A DNA stretch of 64,000 nt from Sanghuangporus weigelae. Taxonomy: Eukaryota; Basidiomycota; Agaricomycetes; Hymenochaetales; Hymenochaetaceae. The DNA lies in contig CP137324.1 in assembly GCA_033182465.1 (NCBI GenBank), forward strand, positions 1,736,001-1,800,000, read 5' to 3'. Within the stretch, counting starts at the first letter, position 1. Every line of letters begins with the position of its first letter. This document shows positions 13,810-38,827 of this stretch, one piece after another. Below the pieces are notes generated by a model that saw only the letters and a list, made by a program, of their open reading frames with translations, was not told the origin of the DNA and did no database searches. A program made the position numbers and the translations under genes.

Positions 13810-14122
13810 GATCAGATCATCGTGCCACAAATTTCGACTCCTAGGATAGTTTTAATCGTCTACACTAGATTTAGATGGACAGAGTGAGCTACGTACAGTT
13901 AAATTTGTCATGACACATAATGTCCGGAGACTACTTTTTGTAATGCATTATCAGATTTATTTATTAGGAACTGGTGAGAAAATCTAAAAAGACGCCAGAA
14001 TGAAGTATAGATACAGTGCAACCTGTGGATAAGAATGCCTCTCGGTGGACACCTCAGAGCATTCTTCAGGTTATTGCACGTCATTATATAAGCAAAAACT
14101 ATTACATCATATCTTACACCTA
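13810..14122. other. 3' flank of citrate synthase
   Basis: AT-richer sequence with no gene. It marks the change from the gene-rich to the repeat-rich part of the window, ending at the TA where the first foldback arm starts. Confidence 0.5.
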
Positions 14123-14632
14123 TAGCTAGTTGCAAAATTGTTGGCAATCACGTGATTTCACCACTTTTCTCGCCATCATGAGAGCTCAAAACACAGATAA
14201 AATCATATCTCACCCAAATCTCAACGGTTTCACATCATCTAAGTTGCTAAATTCATCTTTTCGAAAGGGCTTTCGTTTAAGAAAAACGATCGAGAAAATA
14301 GAGCAAAAAAGGACCCCAAAATGGCGAAAATATCATTTTCTGCCTCTTCCTTGCATGTGCATTTTTTTCTGTGATCCCTGCTGGTCCAGCACCTCCCCAA
14401 AGCTATCCAGAATGATAATATGATTATAAAATGAATTTACAGACTGAGTTTGAGTTGAATTGTGTACCAGAATGTGCTGCTTTGAGGCATGCCTGAATCA
14501 CTCAAAACTCATCATTTCCCCCTAGCCTCCCAGGCTTCAGGAAAAATTCTTACAGGCCAGATTCATGCATGTAAATTCATTTTAGGTGTAATAGACTAGG
14601 TTTGTGCACTAGCAAGGGCCTCAGTGGTGACT
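14123..14632 (+). repeat. Foldback element M1, single left arm (copy a)
   Basis: Begins TAGCTAGTTGCAAAATTG after a TA and follows the same ~500 bp arm seen in the complete copies at 14885 and 43833, up to the GGGCCTCAG next to the central spacer. The right arm is absent, so this is a half copy. No coding capacity is credible; the translated arms are shadows. Confidence 0.85.
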
Positions 14633-14884
14633 GGCACCGCCTATCTAATTTCTGTGCCTTTCCCATGGCTCGCTTAGACGTCAATTGTGATCGACGTGTG
14701 GATTTCTGTGTCTCACTTTTGTTTTTGACATTCAAAAGCTTGTCCCGCCATCCACAACTGTATTAAAAATCTATAAAAATGTCTAAAAAATGTTTTTTGA
14801 TATTGAGAACAAGAATATGACAAAATCTAAAAAAATGGTCAAACCATTTCTGAGATACAGCGAATTTTTGCACATATAGAATTA

Positions 14885-15967
14885 CAGCTAGTTGCAAAAT
14901 TGTTGGCAATCATGTGATTTTGTCACTTTTCAGGTCACAAGAGCCTCAAAACACAAATAAAATCATATCTCGCCCAAATCTCAACGGTTTCACATCATCT
15001 AAGTTGCTAAATTCATGTTTTAGAAAGGGCTTTCGTTTAGAAAAAATGATCGAGAAAATAGAGCAAAAAATGACCCCAAAATGGCGAAAATATCATTTTC
15101 TGCCTCTTCTTTGCATGTGCATTTTTTTCTGTGCTCCCTGCTGGTCCAGCACCTACCCAAAGCTATCCAGAATGATAATATGATTATATTATGAATTTAC
15201 AGACTGAATTTGAGTTGAATTGTGTACCAGAATGTGCTGCTTTGAGGTATGCCTAAATTACTCAAAACTCATCATTTTCCCTAGCCTCCCAAGCTCCAGA
15301 AAAAATACTTGCAGGCCAGACTCATGCATGTAAATTCATTTCAGGTGTAATAGACTAGGTTTGCATACTAGCTAGGGCCTCAGCATTCACTGGTGAGCTG
15401 GGCTAAGCATAAGGTTCTGGTTGTATGCATCATTCTAGACAGCATCTTCTCAGCTCACCAGTGGATGCTGAGGCCCTAGCTAGTATGCAAACCTAGTCTA
15501 TTACACCTAAAATGAATTTACATGCATGAGTCTGGCCTGCAAGTATTTTTTCTGGAGCTTGGGAGGCTAGGGAAAATGATGAGTTTTGAGTGATTCAGGC
15601 ATACCTCAAAGCAGCACATTCTGGTATACAATTCAACTCAAATTCAGTCTGTAAATTCATAATATAATCATATTATCATTCTGGATAGCTTTGGGTAGGT
15701 GCTGGACCAGCAGGGAGCACAGAAAAAATTGCACATGTAAAGAAGAGGTAAAAAACAGTATTTTCACCATTTTGAGGTCATTTTTTGCTCTATTTTCGAG
15801 ATCATTTTTTTTTAAATGAAAGCCCTTTCGAAAACACGAATTTAGCAACTTAGATGATGTGAAACCATTGAGTTTTGGGTGAGATATGATTTTATCTGTG
15901 TTTTGAGGCTCTTGTGCCCTGAAAAGTGACAAAATCACATGATTGCCAACAATTTTGCAACTAGCTG
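14885..15967. mobile_element. Foldback/MITE element M1, complete palindromic copy (b)
   Basis: Two ~500 bp inverted arms start with CAGCTAGTTGCAAAATTG and end with its complement. They surround a ~90 bp spacer that itself has short inverted repeats (CTCACCAGTGGATGCTGAGG at its right end). TA flanks both ends, as expected for Tc1/mariner-type TA target duplication. The element has no transposase and would need one in trans. The near-perfect palindrome could form a long hairpin or double-stranded RNA. Small C/T differences between the arms show age. Confidence 0.88.
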
Positions 15968-15969
15968 TA

Positions 15970-16277
15970 ACTAAGATATTTCTACAAAATGTTTTTTGTA
16001 CAAAATCTGTAAATTTTCATAAAATTACTATCTACATATTGAGACTGGTGGGTTTTGTTAAGGTTGAGCAAGCTAGATACATGCGAGCCGATGGAGGAAC
16101 CTCAGTGCCATATAAGGGAAAGATCACGCATGTGATTAGCAGAAGCCATGCAGAAGCCTGATGACTAAGCGTCGAAACTGACAAAAAACCAATAAACCTG
16201 TGGAAATTGGATTGTCAATGTATGCAGTTGAATTCCTAATGCATATAAAGCACTCACAGTGTTGATTTTTTGAATAG
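15970..16277. other. 5' flank of the transposase-like gene
   Basis: About 300 bp between the foldback element and the start of the next gene. It holds no recognised coding segment and should carry that gene's promoter. No terminal inverted repeat matching the 3' side was found by eye. Confidence 0.4.
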
Positions 16278-17574
16278 ATGTCCACAGGAAGGAAAAAGAA
16301 AACGGAGGCACAGTTACTTGCTCTGAAGGCAGTTCAGGACGAAAGGATAACGAAAATTCATTCCGAGAGACTCAAATCAACATCTGAAAGAGAATCCAGA
16401 TCAGTTTCATCAAAGGTCGACTTACTTACCGAGGAGCTAAACAGAAAGGAAGGTCTACTTACCGAGCTCCAAGAGCTGTCCATTCAACAAGCAAGCAATA
16501 GGAGAAAACTCGAAGAATTAGTCAAGGATCTAACAACAAACAACTCAGCACTCGAGTCAAAAGTAAAGGAACTTCAGGAAACACTCACCACCGTAATGAG
16601 GCGATTGAACGCAGCTTTGCTGCGTTCAACTGCTTCAAAGAAGCAAATGCGGTACTCACATTTGCAATTAAAATGATCGGAGGGCCATGTCACAGCTCTG
16701 AAGGGGAAAATCACAGTATTAGGCACGCAATTGGTGGACAAGCAAGCAAAACTCACTGAAATAGAAGCGAAGGCTATTTCGTACCATGACAAGCTTTCGC
16801 AAGCGCATCATCTGCTCTGCATTCTGTGCTCCGAACCATCCTCTTCCAAATCACAATGTATTGGACTTGAAGAAGAACTTCTGCAGATAAAAAGACAAGT
16901 TGAGAAGTACAGAGGGACTGAGAACAACTTACACGATCGTATTCGAAAACTCCACAAAAAATGTCGCTCCCTTCGCATGGTCAACAGTCGTTCTGGCAGG
17001 AAACTCGATGAACTCACCACATTCAAGGAGAAAGTACTTGAGGTGATCAACCTTACCAAAGACGGCTTTTATGCACCACATGTATGCTCCTTAGTTCGTC
17101 GTATTGTCTCTAATGGATGTCCCCTGGGGAGAACCGACTCTGTAATCAAAGAATTTCTTCAATTTATCTGCAAATTTGTTGAAATTAGTTCCTCGAAGGT
17201 CCGCTCACCGAGTACTCGAACTGTTCAAAGGATCATAGGGGAGGGAAATGTAGCTTCGAGACTGCAGATTGCCCACAGTCTGAAAGAAACAAGAGGTAAG
17301 TTTCTTATCACAGGCACAAATTTGTGGACTTACCAGTCTTAAGGATTTACGACTGGAGAGGATGGAACAATGAACTTGGGTCAAAATTTCGAAGCCCTGC
17401 ATTTAAACGTCCAAATGCCTGGTGACTGTTCTAGCTCTTCAGATTGTCGAGCAGTTCTCTTTGGAGAACTAAGAATTGCTCCAAACCACCGTGCAGAGAC
17501 CCAAATGAGAGGCGACACTAAGTTTCTTGCAGAAATCATAGAGCTTTGGAACGAGAGTCCGCTAGCAGACAAAG

Positions 17575-17638
17575 GCCAGACTATACTCAGCTAGGATCTA
17601 TTGTATAGGTACTAACTCGAGACTCACCTGTATTACAG
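17575..17638 (+). repeat. Near-identical intron, copy a (GC-AG)
   Basis: 64 bp intron beginning GCCAGACTATACTC, sharing the core TCAGCTAGGATCTATTGTAT and a TACTAAC branch-point with the introns at 18293 and 18706. The 5' site reads GC rather than GT. Splicing restores phase (GAG codon at the junction). Confidence 0.85.
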
Positions 17639-18292
17639 AGTTGTCGACTGCACCTCTGACAATCGGGACTGTGGCTATGAAGTATCATGGTTCACATAGT
17701 GACTATGCGGAGGACCAGAAGGCGAAACACCGTCTATTGGCCGTCTGGAAGAAGGAGCATACATTGCGGGGTCTTGGGTCTCGTTATTTCTTTGCCATGG
17801 CAGAGGAAGAGTGTAACACGCTTGTTCTTGAAAACGTTACCTGAATGATTCATGAGCTGGGAGAACAGTCAGTCTGGCAGGCTATGAGCGAAGAAGAACA
17901 TTGCAAGAAACACTTAACTTTGTTGAACGAGATCACTGAAGGCCTTGTGGATCGAGCAATTTGGGACCTCTCGCAGAAGGAATGGCGAGAGGTGCAGCTT
18001 TTTGTTTGGACTGGTTGCAGGACGCATAAGGATCTCAATGCTGTAAAAGGAGGTTGTTTAGCAATGCAGAAGGAACGGAAAAAACACGATATATCACCTG
18101 TTCTGCTTGCTAACAAGGACAATTCGGCTGTTATACAGCTACAAAGTGTGGAGGGAGGGGGAGAGGGTGAGAGAGAAGGGATGAGAGACCAAAGCGGGGT
18201 GGAGAAACGTGCTCACGAAGTTTCGAAGGGAGGCGCAGAGAAGCTGGAAGACCTAATGAGTTTGTTACTTCGCCACAAAGACAAGAAGAAAG

Positions 18293-18352
18293 GTTAGACT
18301 ATACTCAGCTAGGATCTATTGTATAGGTACTAACTCGAGTCTTGTATTTCAG
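18293..18352 (+). repeat. Near-identical intron, copy b (GT-AG)
   Basis: 60 bp intron beginning GTTAGACTATACTC, with the same core and TACTAAC branch-point as copy a, ending GTATTTCAG. It joins KKG to HQDVFRD in frame. Confidence 0.88.
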
Positions 18353-18705
18353 GGCATCAAGATGTCTTTCGTGATTGGGCATTGCAAATCATGCAAAAAC
18401 AAATCAATTGGCCTGACACATCAAATACTCGTTATTCTTCATATCTTGATGGTGCAGTGGAGACTATTGCTCACCTGGATGACTATCTCAAGTTTATAAA
18501 GTACGTACACTTCAACAAAACGAACCCAGGGCTTAATCATCTTGAGACGAATGTGGAAAAGGATCTTTTAGACCCTCCGATGTGCACCGAACTTGCTTAT
18601 CTTGCCCTCTACTGCAAAGCGGTCTTAGTTCCTTACATTAGATCAGTCCGGGGCAAATCACTTGAAGCAGTGAATGCCCTGGATCTCGGTTCTCTGTTGC
18701 AGAAG

Positions 18706-18771
18706 GTAAGTCTATACTCAGCTAGGATCTATTGTATAGGTGCTTACTCGAGTCTTGCATGTCTACAATAG
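18706..18771 (+). repeat. Near-identical intron, copy c (GT-AG)
   Basis: 66 bp intron beginning GTAAGTCTATACTC, with the same core. The branch region is changed to GCTTACTCG and the 3' end to GTCTACAATAG. It joins LLQK to TRSHISKLIREP in frame. Confidence 0.85.
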
Positions 18772-20260
18772 ACTAGATCTCATATTTCGAAACTCATCAG
18801 GGAGCCGCAGATAATCCTGAAGACGAATGCTGTGCCTCGCAAAGCTGTTCTTGATGGAAATGAATTCTGGGACCGCCCCGATGCAATCGAAGCAATTACA
18901 AGACTCATTACCGAAAAAAAGCTTCCTAAGTTGGAGGACCTATTCCAGGCCTTCCTAACTGGAGCTTTAACCGTCTGGGAAAGATTTTTGTCAGAATTTA
19001 GCAAAGATGGAATAATAGCGACACTCACCGAAGGAGAGAAGGGCCTGGCCTGGATGCCGGCAACGAATGATGCAAATGAAGGAGCTCTTAGCTCTTATAA
19101 AGCCTATTCGCGACAAGCTCTGCACGGTTCAGTAAAACTGTTCAACTCACTTTACAGGTACAGCAGAAACCATACCGAGGAATTCATAGAATCATTGCTT
19201 TCCAGCAAAGATCAAGTGTTGTTCTTGATGAGACAGGCTCGCAGGGAGGATGAGGAGGGAAAAGAGAGGAAGCTCAGGGTCAAGATGGTGGACAAACACA
19301 TATGGGAGGCTGCCATCAGAGAACAAAAGACCGAGACACGAAACAAGAAAAAGTCAGACCATGCCGTGCGAATTCAACAGGTTGATCTGGTACTTGATTG
19401 TGAAGCTATCGAGAAAATGAACGTAAAAGAATTGAAGGATCAGTTGGACAAGTTTAGGACAGAATTTCCGGAAGTAAAAGTACCTGTTGATAGCAAGATG
19501 CCGAGAAAGGGCGAGAAGAAGGCCCTCTTATTGGACCTCCTCGTAAAATATTATTTGTAGTAATATAGGTTGTCCAAAATGACATGTGTAGACAATGTTT
19601 GATGGAGTGATCTTGCTGCTTATGGTATTCCACAAGTGTGATTTGCTTCTGGTGCTGCATGTCCTGTGCGATCAGTTCACCGTTTGTGACTGAGAGAGGA
19701 GAGGGCTCGAAACGCATTCCAGCATCTCTCATGATTCCCTGCTGTAGTGCACACCGCTATTCTGGGTGTCAGCAGTTGAGTATTGTACATACTTCACCAG
19801 TGTCCAACACACTGGTGTATCAGTTTCCTGAGCGACTCCAACAGTCACAAAGGGTATATATGACTCAATTCAATTCTTCTGGGTGCTCTGCTATACCTTA
19901 GTACACACCCAAGACTTCGTACATATCTTGGCTCACCCTATTTCACCTTCCTTTGCACATATGTCACATTCCGAGACCCCGAAGACCCGCTAATACTGCA
20001 CCATAGGCGCCACGCCATATTTCATTGTCCATACTTCATCACACTACCACTGGCCGACCTCCACCTCAGTCATCCGAGCAGATATTGGCACTCCAAGGTC
20101 TGGACTCAGACTCCTGAAGGGACCCTAAGCCTTTTCATCAGTGTTTCACACTGTCAGGAACAAATCCGACCTGTTTTGAGGTACCCAACGGCCGTGTACC
20201 TACATCCTAGATGTTCCACAAGGTGCGCTCCGTTGTTCAGACCTTGCCGAAGTGGTCTCC

Positions 20261-30251: not shown

Positions 30252-33206
30252 TGTAGCGCACACTGCTATTCTGGGCGTCAGCGGTCAAGTATTGTACATA
30301 CTTCACCAGTGTCCAACACACTGGTGTATCAGTTTCCCGAGCGACTCCAACAGTCACAAAGGGTATATACGACTCAATTCAATTCTTCCGGGCGCTCTGC
30401 CATACCTTAGGACACGCCCGAGACTTCGTACATATCTTGGCTCACCCTATTTCACCTTCCTTTGCACATATGTCACATTCCGAGACCCCGAAGACCCGCT
30501 AATACTGCACCATAGGCGCCACGCCATATTTCATTGTCCATACTTCATCACACTATCACTGGCCGACCTCCACCTCAGTCATCCGAGCAGATATTGGCAC
30601 TCCAAGGTCTGGACTCAGACTCCTGAAGGGACCCTAAGCCTTTTCATCAGTGTTTCACACTGTCAGGAACAAATCCGACCTGTTTTGAGGTACCCAACGG
30701 CCGTGTACCTACATCCTAGATGTTCCACAAGGTGCGCTCCGTTGTTCGGACCTTGCCGAAGTGGTCTCCGAGGTTCGGACTTCCGATCGGAGGTCGCCGA
30801 TGAAGAGTAAGACTAAAGCTTGGGAGCGTACGAAGTCGTTACGACCAGTTCCGCGGTGTTCCGACTGGTTTCGCCCGGTTCCGACTGGTTTCGCTGGAGC
30901 GAGTGGACTTAGCAAGAACGCCATAGTTCAAATGGCACGTGCACCGTTCTATGATCGGCCATCATATCAGACACGACGGAAGAATCACGCGACGATCCTA
31001 CACGCGTCAATCACAAGTCTCCGGATCCCGGATCCGTACTCCTGACAAAGAGATTTGACCCTGCAGCGTCGTCCACAGTCCCTCTCCCATTCAAAACGTC
31101 GCAGATTTGCCCTGTAAGGCTAGCCGAAGTCTTTCCAAGTCTTTTCCCCTAGTTCCGACTCGTTCCGCTCAAAGACACCCGGTTCCGAAAGCTTTGCTTA
31201 TGATCTCACTTTCTATATGCGTCCCTTTTATTTCTTTATGCTCTCGTTCCGACCATGCTTGGTATTGTTTCTTTCTGTTTTATGTGTCCCTTAACCATTC
31301 ATATGCGCCCCATTCCTTTGTAGATAAGTGATATGCGTTCCCCTTTTCTTATGACTTATGTTTTCTGACCGATGGGAGGCTCAGTTTGGACGTTTAGTAT
31401 AAATTTAGCACGACTCTCGTAGTGGGGGGGGGAGCTTAGTAGGAGCTAAGGAGCTCTTAGATCGTCTCAAGTCCCCCAGCCTCGAGTTCTTCTTGTTCGT
31501 AGAAAACTCTCTCGTCTCTAAAGCCTAATATACGATATTTCGTGTTCTGTACAGTCGATCGGTGACATCTCTTCGCAGCAGAGCCGTTCGTACGTTTGTA
31601 TAGTTCGCCTGGTTCGTATAAAGGACTCCTCCTGTCTCTGTCACCCGGATCGAAACCGCATTGCGTGTTCCGATTGGTTTCGCTGGTTTCGCTCGTAACC
31701 CAGTTACTTAGCGTGCCGCGTGCTTTCGGTCTCGTAACATCTTCCCCTCTCCACTGTCGTCGGAAAAGGGCACCATATTACCCCTTTCCATCGCCATAAA
31801 GTCCCTCCGTCTCTTGTATCACGTTTAGGTCACCCAGTTACCGTCCCCGTCCATCGTACCGCGTTCGAATCGTTACGCCGCGTTCCGACACTTTAGACTC
31901 CGAGTGAGATCGGCTGCCGTCGCTTCCCAGTGTGTTAGCACGGTCGATTAGTCACGTTCGAGTTGGTGGTTCGACTAGCGTAGCTTTAGTTAGATCAGTT
32001 CTTGTTCCTCGTATTAGTCGGCTTTAGTCCAGAGCTCGCAGTTGAGCCGGAGAGTCGATTTAGCCTTCGCACCGCCACCATCAATCTCGGGAGAAGCCCA
32101 TCCTCGGAATCCTTCCTCGAGCGCTTCCCACGCGTTCCTCAGCCCTCATACTACCCTTCTCTCGTACATTCCACCATCCCTTCGTGTCCACTTGCCTTTG
32201 GTCTAGGTGTATCTCTCTGCTGACTATTCAAAGGTATTCTAGGGCAGCCCCTCGAACTTTATATTCCCTGTCCAGTTTCAGAACGCCCACAGGAGTTTCA
32301 CCGATTGGTACATCCGTTTGGTCACTCCATCCGGTTTGTTCGCCAACTTGAGTGCGCGGTTCGGAGGACCCTTCCTGGACAGTTTTCATGTTGTTTCACA
32401 GTTCCTTGCAGTCCGTCTGACCCTTATTGCATCAGTTTCACACTCCTTGCTATGATTTCATCTTGTTTCACAGTTTCCTGTAGTCCACTAGACTAGACTT
32501 CTGTCTTGTCGGTTTCACGCTCCTTGTTGTGGTCTCATTACATTTCACCTCACGTCTTGTCATGATCCTTCCCTAGTCCCAGATCAGTCGTTTTGTACAT
32601 GTTTTGGACCCACATAGTCTATAAAACCCGCCCAGATGTCATAGTTTTCAGATAGTGAATACCAGAGATCTGTTCAGCGCGCACATCTTCTGTTCCAAAG
32701 CCTCTCAGATTGTCCCGACCAACTCTGTCATTCATAGAAGATCGAAGTGCCCACTTTAGGTATCTCACCTTCCTTGTCTAGACCAGTCCGGACGTCCCGG
32801 GACTGACTCGGTTACACTCAGCTTGTCTTCTTTCTCCGTCGACTCATCTCCGAGGTGATCAAGTTACCAAAGTATTCACTCAGTTCACTGCAGCATGTCC
32901 GGATTGGTCTCCCTAGATGACCATTGAGTATCACATCTTGCCTACGTGTATTCGCTCACCCCCCCTTTTCCGCCCTTTCAGATAGTTCACCCCGACCATT
33001 CCGGCGGGAGCTATTCCGACTAACGACAGTTCCCACAGAGTAGGCCGGAGCCTCGGTCTATCTCAGGGGAGTCTTCCGGATCACCCTTCCTTGTTTAGTT
33101 TTCCCGATTCATTCTTGCTCACTCCCTATAGGATCGAACACCCTAGCCTGCTAGGATCGCACCTACAGACCTAGTCCAATCGTCCACCCACAATATCGAT
33201 CATACA
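30252..33206 (+). mobile_element. Family A LTR copy A2 (3' LTR), split by nested LTR C2
   Basis: TG...CA ends as in A1, with a TATA box (TATAAAACCC) near 32621 and the same R/U5 features. It keeps more CpG sites than A1, suggesting that A1 has been more exposed to methylation-type decay. Confidence 0.8.
30801..32300 (+). mobile_element. Family C solo LTR copy C2, nested in A2, with 4-bp target duplication
   Basis: 1500 bp, starts TGAAGAGTAAGAC and ends CAGGAGTTTCA, with CCGA on both sides (30797-30800 and 32301-32304). A TATA-like TAGTATAAATTTAGC lies near 31397. The flanking A2 sequence is continuous across the insertion. Confidence 0.88.
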
Positions 33207-34548: not shown

Positions 34549-34849
34549 GAAGCACCTATGTGCGCTATACCACGAGATTATATTGTCTGTCGCAGAAGGT
34601 AAATATAAGTCTTTCCCACTGTGTGTGAGACCAGGCTCCCGATAGGCAAAGAAGCCCTTGTAATATGGTCGCAATACGGGGAATTGTTGCTCTTGCTGTA
34701 CAGATCATATATATAAGCAAACCTTTTTGTCATTTGCATTCACAAGGCGCATACAAAGACGTTGAGTAAGAACAACACTTTATTCAAAGTAAAAATATAT
34801 GCGTACCTTATCCTAGTCAGACCTTGGATTCTGCTTTCAGATCAACAAT
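34549..34849. other. Unassigned sequence
   Basis: No gene or repeat recognised. It separates the F LTR from the small RPB1 fragment. Confidence 0.4.
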
Positions 34850-35045
34850 TTTCCAAGTAGATGCAAATTTATGCAGACTTTCATCTCAATCTTTCCATCA
34901 CTTTGTACAATGCCGACTTCGATGGTGATGAAATGAACATGCAGTATGAAATGAACTTGCAGTATGCCGTATCACTTCCGCCTCGTGTGATTGCTTCTGT
35001 ATCGAGACATCTCGCTTGGGCTCCACGACAGGAGGGTACCGGTTG
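34850..35045 (+). pseudogene. Fragment of the RNA polymerase II largest subunit gene (RPB1), active-site segment
   Basis: One frame reads FHLNLSITLYNADFDGDEMN, the universal metal-binding loop of multisubunit RNA polymerases with its three aspartates, in the RPB1-type context. A changed LAWAPRQ replaces the usual IAWVPRQ. Only about 60 codons are recognisable, with a local duplication (EMNMQYEMNLQY) at the point where the larger copy at 45-46 kb has an intron. It is far too short to function. Confidence 0.8.
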
Positions 35046-35402
35046 AAATACTACTTATGATCACAAAGCTTCCAGAAGTAAAAACATTAGCAATCAAGTG
35101 TAACAGTTTGATCAAAAGCAGAGGTTTGACAGAGATAGGGGCCTTAGTATAACATCGTTTTAATTGTTTCTGACAAGTTATTTTGCATATATCATGGCTT
35201 GAAAGGTTTTGAAAGGGTGTATTGGTGCTTGTTGGTCACTTAGAGTTTGCAAAATAAGATTCAGGGGAGGGACAGATCTTAGATGTTTGCGATTTGAGAC
35301 ATAATTAAAAAGTGAGACACTATGATTGATGCGAGTTACTATATATGGGCAGAATTTAAACTCCGCATGGTCACACGGTTTACTTAGGCTGTGCCAGTCA
35401 CC
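35046..35402. other. Unassigned sequence
   Basis: About 360 bp between the RPB1 fragment and foldback copy M1c. No credible gene. Confidence 0.35.
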
Positions 35403-35993
35403 AGCCTTAGCATCCACTGGTGAGCTGGGCTGAACAAGTGTTTCTAGTTGTATGCACTATTCTAGACAGCATCTCCCAGCTCACCAGTGGATGCTGAGGC
35501 CCTTACTAGTGCACAAACCTAGTCTATTACACCTAAAATGAATTTACATGCATGAATCTGGCCTGTAAGAATTTTTCCTGGAGCCTGGGAGGCTAGGGGG
35601 AAATGATAAGTTTTAAGTAATTCAGACATGCCTTAAAGCAGCACATTCTGGTACACAATTCAACTCATACTCAGTCTTTAAATTCATTTTATAATCATAT
35701 TATTATTCTGGATAGCTTTGGGGAGGTGCTGGACCACCAGGGATCACAGAAAAAATTGCATATGCAAGGAAGAGGCAAAAAACGATATTGTTGCCATTTT
35801 GGAGTCCTTTTTTGCTCTATTTTCTCAATCATTTTTTCTAAATGAAAGCCCTTTCGAAAAGATGAGTTTAGCAACTTAGATGATGTGAAACCGTTGAGAT
35901 TTAGGTGAGATATGATTTTATCTGTGTTTTGAGGCTCTTATAGCGAGAAAAGTGGTGAAATCATGTGATTGCCAACAATTTTACAACTAGCTG
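35403..35993 (-). repeat. Foldback element M1, right arm plus centre (copy c)
   Basis: Contains the ~90 bp spacer with both short inverted repeats and the complete right arm ending CAACTAGCTG before a TA. The left arm is missing beyond the spacer. It abuts the Copia-like LTR remnant, which it appears to have interrupted. Confidence 0.82.
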
Positions 35994-37367: not shown

Positions 37368-38827
37368 CACAATCCTAGCAGGCTAGGGCATTCGATCCTA
37401 TAGAGAGTGAGCGAGAACAAATCAGGGTAACCAAACAAAGAAGGGTGATCCAGAAGACTTCCCTGAGGTAGACCAAGACTACGGCCTACTCTACGGGACC
37501 GGCGATCAATCAGAATCGGTCTGCTGGAACAGTCGGGGTAAACTGTTGGAGGGACAGGATGTGAATGAGTGTCTAGGTCCGTGCTCCTGTGACCGAGTAG
37601 GGGCAAACTATCTAAAAAGAGGAAAGGGGGGAGTGAATACACATAGGCAGGATGTAATACTCAACGATCAACTAGGGAGACAGTCTGGACACACTGCGGT
37701 GAGCCAAGTGAATACTTCGGTGACTTGATCACCTCGAAGATTAGGTTGATGGAGAAAGAAGACAAGCTGAGAGTATCCGAGTCACTCCCAGGACGTCCAG
37801 ACTAGTCTAAACAATGAAGATGAGATACCCAAAGGGGGTGCTATGAGCTTCTACGAGTGACAGAGTTAGTTGGGACAATCTAAGAGGCTTTGGAACAGAA
37901 GATGTGTGCACTGAACAGATCTCTAGTATTCGCTATCTAAAAACTATGATATCTGGGTGGGTTTTATAGACTATGTGGGTCCAAAACATGTACAAAACAA
38001 GTGATCTGGGTCTGAGGGAGGATCGTGATAAGACATGAGGTGAAATGCAATAAAACCACAACAAGGAGCGTGAAACCAACAAGACAGAAGTCTAGTGGAC
38101 TATAAGAAACTGTGAAACAGAATGAAATCATAGCAAGGAGTGTGGAACTGATGCAATAAGGGTCAGGTGGACTGCAAGGAATTGTGAAACAACATAAAAA
38201 CTGTCCAGGAAGGGTCCTCCGAATGGTGCAATCAAGTCGGTAAACAAACTGGACGGAGTGATCAAACAGATGTACCAATCGGCAAACTCCGATCGGAAGT
38301 CCAAACTTTGGAGGCCACTTCGGCAATGTCTGAATAACGGAGCGCCCCTCGTGGAACGTCTAGGGTGAAGGTACACAACCGTTCAGTACCTCAAAACAAG
38401 TCGGAGCGGTCCCTGGCAGTGTGAAACGTTGATGAGAAGATCTAGGGGCCTATCAGGAGTCTGGGACCAGTCTTTGGAGTGCCGATATCTGCTTGGGTGA
38501 CTGAGGCGGTGGTCGGCGAGTGGTAGTGTGACAAAGTATAGACATTGAAATATGGTGTGGCGCCTACGGCGCAGTACTAGCAGGTCTTTAGGGTCTTGGA
38601 AGGTGACATATATGCAGGAGAAGGTGAAATGGCATGAACCAAAATATGTATGAAGTCTTGGGCACATTCTAAGGTATAGTGGAGCACTCAGAAGGATCGA
38701 ATCAAGTTGTATATACTTCTCACAACTATTGGAGTCACTCGAGCAGCTGATGCACCAGTGTGTTAGACACTAGTGAAGTATGTACAATACTTGTTCACTA
38801 ACGCATAGAATAGCAGTGTGCATTACA
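37368..38827 (-). mobile_element. Family A LTR copy A3, incomplete
   Basis: Minus-strand family A LTR beginning TGTAATGCACACTGC at 38827 and continuing to the conserved CCTAGCAGGCTAGGG region near 37370. It is incomplete at its 3' end. It is more divergent from A1/A2 than they are from each other, so it is older. A family B LTR fragment abuts its 5' end. Confidence 0.8.

Follow-up and report, generated by a model that had tools for sequence, protein, structure and literature searches.

Predicted introns probably built from the 5′ domain of U3 small nucleolar RNA in a DNA transposon gene of Sanghuangporus weigelae

Three predicted introns of a transposase-like gene in the fungus Sanghuangporus weigelae share a nearly identical core, and on sequence comparison this core is the 5′ domain of the genome's own U3 small nucleolar RNA (snoRNA), comprising nucleotides (nt) 1–47 and originally about nt 1–64, with the U3 identity taken from a sub-threshold Rfam match. 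The gene lies in a 64,000-nt stretch of contig CP137324.1, hereafter the window (C7:1736001-1800000), and the searched assembly, GCA_033182465.1, comprises 33.87 Mb in 13 contigs. We think it fairly probable that U3 fragments became introns in this gene family and have since been held close to U3, in all likelihood by selection; their splicing is predicted and any function putative. U3 is an essential RNA of ribosome making. The 5′ half of its M1 hairpin, which holds boxes A′ and A, pairs with the 5′ end of 18S ribosomal RNA (rRNA) (PubMed Central (PMC) article PMC5832005).

Results

Three look-alike introns carry the probable 5′ domain of U3

The initial annotation had placed introns A, B and C at the positions given in Table 1, each after an exon ending in AAG, and these placements hold. 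The three are real look-alikes and, by their sequence, predicted spliceosomal introns. Over U3 nt 1–47, intron B is identical to U3 at 46 of 47 positions and introns A and C at 45 of 47 each, with all 17 positions of nt 6–22 matching in every one; the tail of intron C is also U3-like (13/17 at nt 48–64). A repeat search of the window recovered A, B and C as one 61-nt family with 85–90% identity to the reference copy. The annotation had also reported a shared core unseen elsewhere in the window, and we could reproduce this: a 20-nt core is present in three copies, whereas 100 shuffles gave 0.01 on average; no further window copy appears even with up to three mismatches allowed. All three introns contain an RCTNAC branch-site-like motif, judged by eye in the alignment. 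At site C, the protein models of S. weigelae and S. sanghuang (P0001 and P0026) join as expected, as far as protein models go, and none of the 61 homologous proteins found contained a peptide read through an intron.

The U3 assignment comes from two loci on another contig, C5. Both cover positions 1–221 of 221 of Rfam Plant_U3, with 36.5 and 35.9 bits (E ~1e-6), short of the gathering score of 80; two lower-scoring matches from the same Rfam clan were set aside. They are 97% identical over 312 bp only and unrelated outside, carry TATATAA about 30 bp upstream, and align without an intron. The family introns span U3 nt 1 to a point between nt 47 and nt 64, and U3 nt 49–237 has genome matches at the two U3 loci only. 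The introns thus follow the pattern of 3′-truncated U3 copies, beginning at nt 1, ending by about nt 64 and lacking the 3′ part. Because U3 starts with AGAC, a preceding GT plus one base gives the donor GTNAG, and the branch-site-like motif GTGCTAAC falls within the U3 piece. Sites B and C are flanked on both sides by AGG/CAGG repeats, which may be target duplications and are indistinguishable from the splice consensus.

The core is nearly confined to one gene family

A 63-nt core query matched 17 places genome-wide. A 19-nt pattern with at most one mismatch matched 18: the two U3 genes on C5, one place in locus L047, and 15 introns of the transposase-like gene and its paralogs. These 15 are introns A, B and C of the window gene, L050, L052 and L049, introns B and C of L051, and intron B of L048. 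Intron C of L048, added by position, is a 16th family intron; it is decayed and moderately U3-like, with 17 of 2000 shuffles scoring as high. In L049 and L051, intron C is split by a long terminal repeat (LTR). Matches with three mismatches added four more places, which is not above the reversed-pattern control (eight, 6+2, at up to three mismatches).

Fourteen of the 16 family introns have GT-AG ends, with those of L049 C and L051 C taken across the LTR insertion; window intron A is GC-AG and L049 B is AT-AG. Intron B of L049 (L049:5116-5183) starts with AT in place of GT and matches the U3 core at 43 of 47 positions; with so nearly intact a core, this is probably a dead copy that has lost its donor.

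Apart from the family and the U3 genes, only L047 holds a U3 5′ fragment (L047:4418-4492, minus strand), identical to U3 at 55 of 56 nt. It sits between a high-copy repeat, which ends beside the putative donor, and a transposase-like coding stretch that, to judge by its motifs, may be akin to Plavaka/CACTA-type transposases. A Pfam search of the L047 exons gave nothing above threshold.

The introns were gained within the transposase family and are old

Six paralogs carry introns at matching positions, B and C in all six and A in four. Six others lack them: at sites B and C, and at site A wherever it is covered, their coding sequence continues without a break. These paralogs indicate that the introns were gained within the transposase family, and agree with the earlier proposal that they are gained and related to one another. 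A tree of 15 paralogs separates the six carriers, together with three truncated copies, from the six non-carriers with branch support of 100/99. Among the carriers, L048 is truncated before A, and L051 is without A, so that A was either gained later or lost there; the branch placing its gain has a support of just 82/82. Synonymous divergence (dS) between the window gene and L050 is 1.18, and values between carriers run from this to saturation. In a tree with named proteins, the carrier clade takes in Sanghuangporus sequences, placed next to L051, L048, L057 and L052 (supported by the Shimodaira–Hasegawa-like approximate likelihood ratio test only). This nesting suggests that the carrier subfamilies are older than the splits of these species.

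These data bear on the idea, put forward with the first description of the introns, of a recent gain by a mobile introner. 'Recent' does not fit introns that occupy the same sites in paralogs with a dS of 1.18 or saturation, and 'mobile introner' does not fit a core found outside the family only in two U3 genes and one other place. A genome-wide introner family is rejected, with the core at 18 places in 33.9 Mb and only one of them outside the family and the U3 genes. That a mobile introner family inserted recently into the transposase gene is largely refuted, and we regard it as highly improbable. It would explain why unrelated exon contexts hold near-identical introns, each in sense orientation and with splice signals, and why there is an extra copy in L047, yet it sits poorly with a single place outside the family besides the U3 genes, with sites shared among such diverged paralogs, and with U3 as the source; moreover, fungal introner-like elements degenerate fast (PMC4457414). 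The other option raised at the outset, intron-to-intron copying, keeps part of its ground: the genome search found the core nearly confined to the gene family, as local copying would have it, but the source is the U3 5′ domain. Copying between introns after a first U3 insertion is possible at some sites.

The U3 core is better conserved than the exons

In each of the five paralog sets tested, no 48-nt window of exon sequence is as conserved as the 47-nt core. In a segment identity table of 17 rows (the 16 family introns and L047), boxes A′/A (nt 6–22) are 98% identical between carriers, or 92% with the decayed L048 C included, and the tails decay. A constraint centred on boxes A′/A fits selection on a U3-like recognition strand.

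The main competing explanation is that U3-derived introns were kept alike not by selection but by repeated re-copying, whether through re-insertion or complementary DNA (cDNA)-mediated conversion with U3 RNA as the source, or through conversion of one intron by another. We take it seriously while judging it rather unlikely. Similarity of the core is star-like around U3 (0.896 within a gene, 0.894 at the same site and 0.884 at other sites, computed without L049 C or L048 C and with L051 C lacking its 5′ piece), which would also be expected under re-copying from U3; an abundant small RNA is available as template, and the tails drift past nt 47. However, four or five paralogs whose synonymous sites are saturated share a T at nt 37 in intron C that was never reset, and the window gene and L050 share a non-U3 tail in intron A (CACCTG..), both of which argue against frequent overwriting from U3. 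Since the neighbouring exons are unconverted, conversion tracts would also need to be shorter than about 50 bp.

We see very little chance that a role at the DNA or coding level, such as a transposase binding site or translation of a retained intron, explains the conservation of the core. The frame of intron C is open in L050, but introns A and B lie in another phase and have an in-frame TAG inside the core. The terminal inverted repeats (TGGTGACTGGCAC) are unlike U3, and identity to U3 is not predicted by such a role.

Several results, the star-like similarity among them, weigh against selection on a U3-derived core. In the closest pair, the window gene and L050, 39, 39 and 8 of 982 exon windows of 18 nt reach the box A′/A identity of introns A, B and C, respectively, and the conservation effect in this pair rests on the 47-nt core. 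The decay of L048 C indicates that the core is dispensable at some site. Hairpin M1 is formed in 92% of cells, with compensatory change not beyond shuffles, and 7 of 15 rows break its pair at columns 18-40; what is kept is therefore the sequence. The longest complement of the core within the transposon, a 12-nt run, is not beyond chance (reached by 4 of 60 shuffles), and two search patterns found no 18S rRNA or ribosomal DNA for pairing in the assembly. As to the U3 identity itself, the C5 loci reach 36 bits against an Rfam threshold of 80, a whole-genome Fungi_U3 search gave nothing at E up to 1 (24 of 553 candidates scored), and Rfam recognised no U3 in the intron fragments themselves.

A DNA transposon contains the host gene

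Judged from the ends and flanks, the gene sits within a DNA transposon bounded by inverted repeats and flanked by target duplications of 7 bp (Table 1). Inverted-repeat ends (TGGGGACCGGCAAT and similar) with 7-bp duplications bound L052 (TTGTTAA), L055 (CAACAAA) and L051 (CTCCGAG); in L050 the inverted repeats are seen, with no clear target duplication. The right end of the window transposon is displaced, the copy being torn apart by nested insertions, and the 3′ part of L053 matches window positions 34573-35403 at 86%. In-frame TGA codons end the open reading frames of the window gene at 16676 and 17844, and L050 has open reading in the parts matching these interrupted ones. With two in-frame TGA codons, the window gene is probably a dead copy.

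Table 1. Parts of the window transposon and its transposase-like gene, in window positions
Feature	Position	Strand	Remarks
Left terminal inverted repeat (TGGTGACTGGCACCGCC...)	14625-14643	+	GCCTCAG just before, at 14618-14624
First coding part	16278-17295	+	52% amino acid identity to L050 exon 1; in-frame TGA at 16674-16676
Candidate intron Z	17296-17343	+	core absent; 33/53 alignment columns identical to L050 counterpart
Exon between Z and A	17344-17574	+	
Intron A	17575-17638	+	GC-AG, 64 nt; U3 nt 1-47 at 17578-17624
Exon between A and B	17639-18292	+	in-frame TGA at 17842-17844
Intron B	18293-18352	+	GT-AG, 60 nt; U3 nt 1-47 at 18296-18342
Exon between B and C	18353-18705	+	
Intron C	18706-18771	+	GT-AG, 66 nt; U3 nt 1-47 at 18709-18755
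Last exon	18772-19560	+	translation has 19 matches in the genome
Right terminal inverted repeat	35385-35403	-	GCCTTAG after, at 35404-35410; 6/7 bases equal to left flank

The motifs GGDGT, GCxMHKDLN and NDANEG are conserved, by eye, in the transposase-like protein, a candidate DDE transposase of the kind with a CxxH motif, and a Pfam search of the transposase parts found nothing above threshold. DUF6589, a conjectured family for the protein, is named in no article of the open-access PMC library. Its named best matches include Sanghuangporus species. Next to L050 lies a MAM33 gene, 96% identical over 95% of its length to the S. sanghuang counterpart.

Large inverted repeats (one of 365 nt, 95% complementary) occupy window positions 14116-15970, inserted in the transposon upstream of the gene, with further copies near 35-36 kb and 44 kb. 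A 520-bp repeat at 19743-20260 recurs at 30252 and 58619 and, inverted, at 38791. From 20261 to about 21770 runs the LTR of a young LTR retrotransposon, which starts TGAAAGGATCC; it has at least 40 near-identical genome copies (of 423 candidates), many of them paired 10.8 kb apart. This LTR lies in or beside many paralogs, including intron C of L049 and of L051, with 5-bp duplications GTATG and TATAC.

Discussion

We propose that each of the three introns began as a fragment of U3, from nt 1 to about nt 64, which entered the transposase gene of this DNA transposon family in sense orientation. The fragment may have arisen by self-primed reverse transcription of U3; the human U3 pseudogenes of Bernstein, Mount and Weiner (1983) are reportedly 3′-truncated and derived from such transcripts, and are said to lie in non-coding DNA. 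With a branch site already inside, the U3 fragment would have been a nearly ready-made intron. After the gains, purifying selection would have retained nt 1–47, chiefly boxes A′/A, the strand that pairs with pre-18S rRNA. As a working model, the pre-mRNA would be recognised through this U3 mimic, by pairing with pre-rRNA or by U3-binding proteins, and recognition might then affect the splicing, location or silencing of the transposase RNA. A bolder version, which we offer as speculation and think will probably prove wrong, holds that the transposon employs a domesticated U3 5′ domain as a module for RNA control: boxes A′/A in the three introns would pair with pre-18S rRNA or bind U3-specific proteins, making the splicing, nucleolar retention or silencing of the transposase RNA dependent on ribosome biogenesis.

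Known systems resemble parts of this arrangement. In the 1983 U3 pseudogenes, reportedly, and in the family introns only the U3 5′ part is present, and beyond the two U3 loci the 3′ part occurs nowhere in this genome; the difference is that the fragments described here form predicted introns and have remained close to U3. Introner-like elements (PMC4457414, PMC9860276) likewise form near-identical intron sets that mark gain, in sense orientation and with splice signals; the introns described here differ in being almost restricted to one gene family, in their age, in their snoRNA source and in a core that is not degenerating. The main text of PMC9860276 mentions neither snoRNA nor basidiomycet-. 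Many fungal U3 genes, some of them from Basidiomycota, contain introns, and these bring together the same two elements, spliceosomal introns and the M1 hairpin at the U3 5′ end with its boxes A′/A (PMC5832005), but the relation is inverted here, with U3 sequence inside the introns of a protein gene. In fungal introns that bear snoRNAs and shift sites (PMC3596301), intron gain is again tied to snoRNA sequence, yet those introns carry whole functional snoRNAs in non-coding hosts, and ours carry the U3 5′ domain only, in a transposase gene. The ultraconserved snoRNA-like element of CRNDE stays unprocessed inside a longer RNA, which is alternatively spliced and pairs with pre-rRNA (PMC11291168). 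It sets a precedent for how such an element may act as part of a longer transcript, although it is a C/D-box element of a human long noncoding RNA and neither U3 nor part of a transposon. Dada DNA transposons share target duplications of 6–7 bp, a DDE enzyme (a candidate here) and a link to small RNA genes; Dada-U6, however, is without terminal inverted repeats and inserts into small RNA genes (PMC3706591), whereas here there are inverted repeats and the U3 sequence lies in introns. Membership in Dada was considered and rejected given the inverted-repeat ends of L051, L052, L055 (with 7-bp duplications) and the window copy. No report of introns made from U3 was found in the open-access PMC literature, a scope that leaves subscription papers and most preprints outside.

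How new spliceosomal introns originate is an old question, and the source of most gained ones cannot be traced. In this family a probable source is identified, an intronless sister clade is present and three sites can be compared. The pattern also reverses the usual rule that introns drift and exons are kept, as none of the exon stretches of equal length that were tested is as well conserved as the U3 core. If selection is the cause, a transposon would be using, inside its introns, a mimic of an essential ribosome-assembly RNA.
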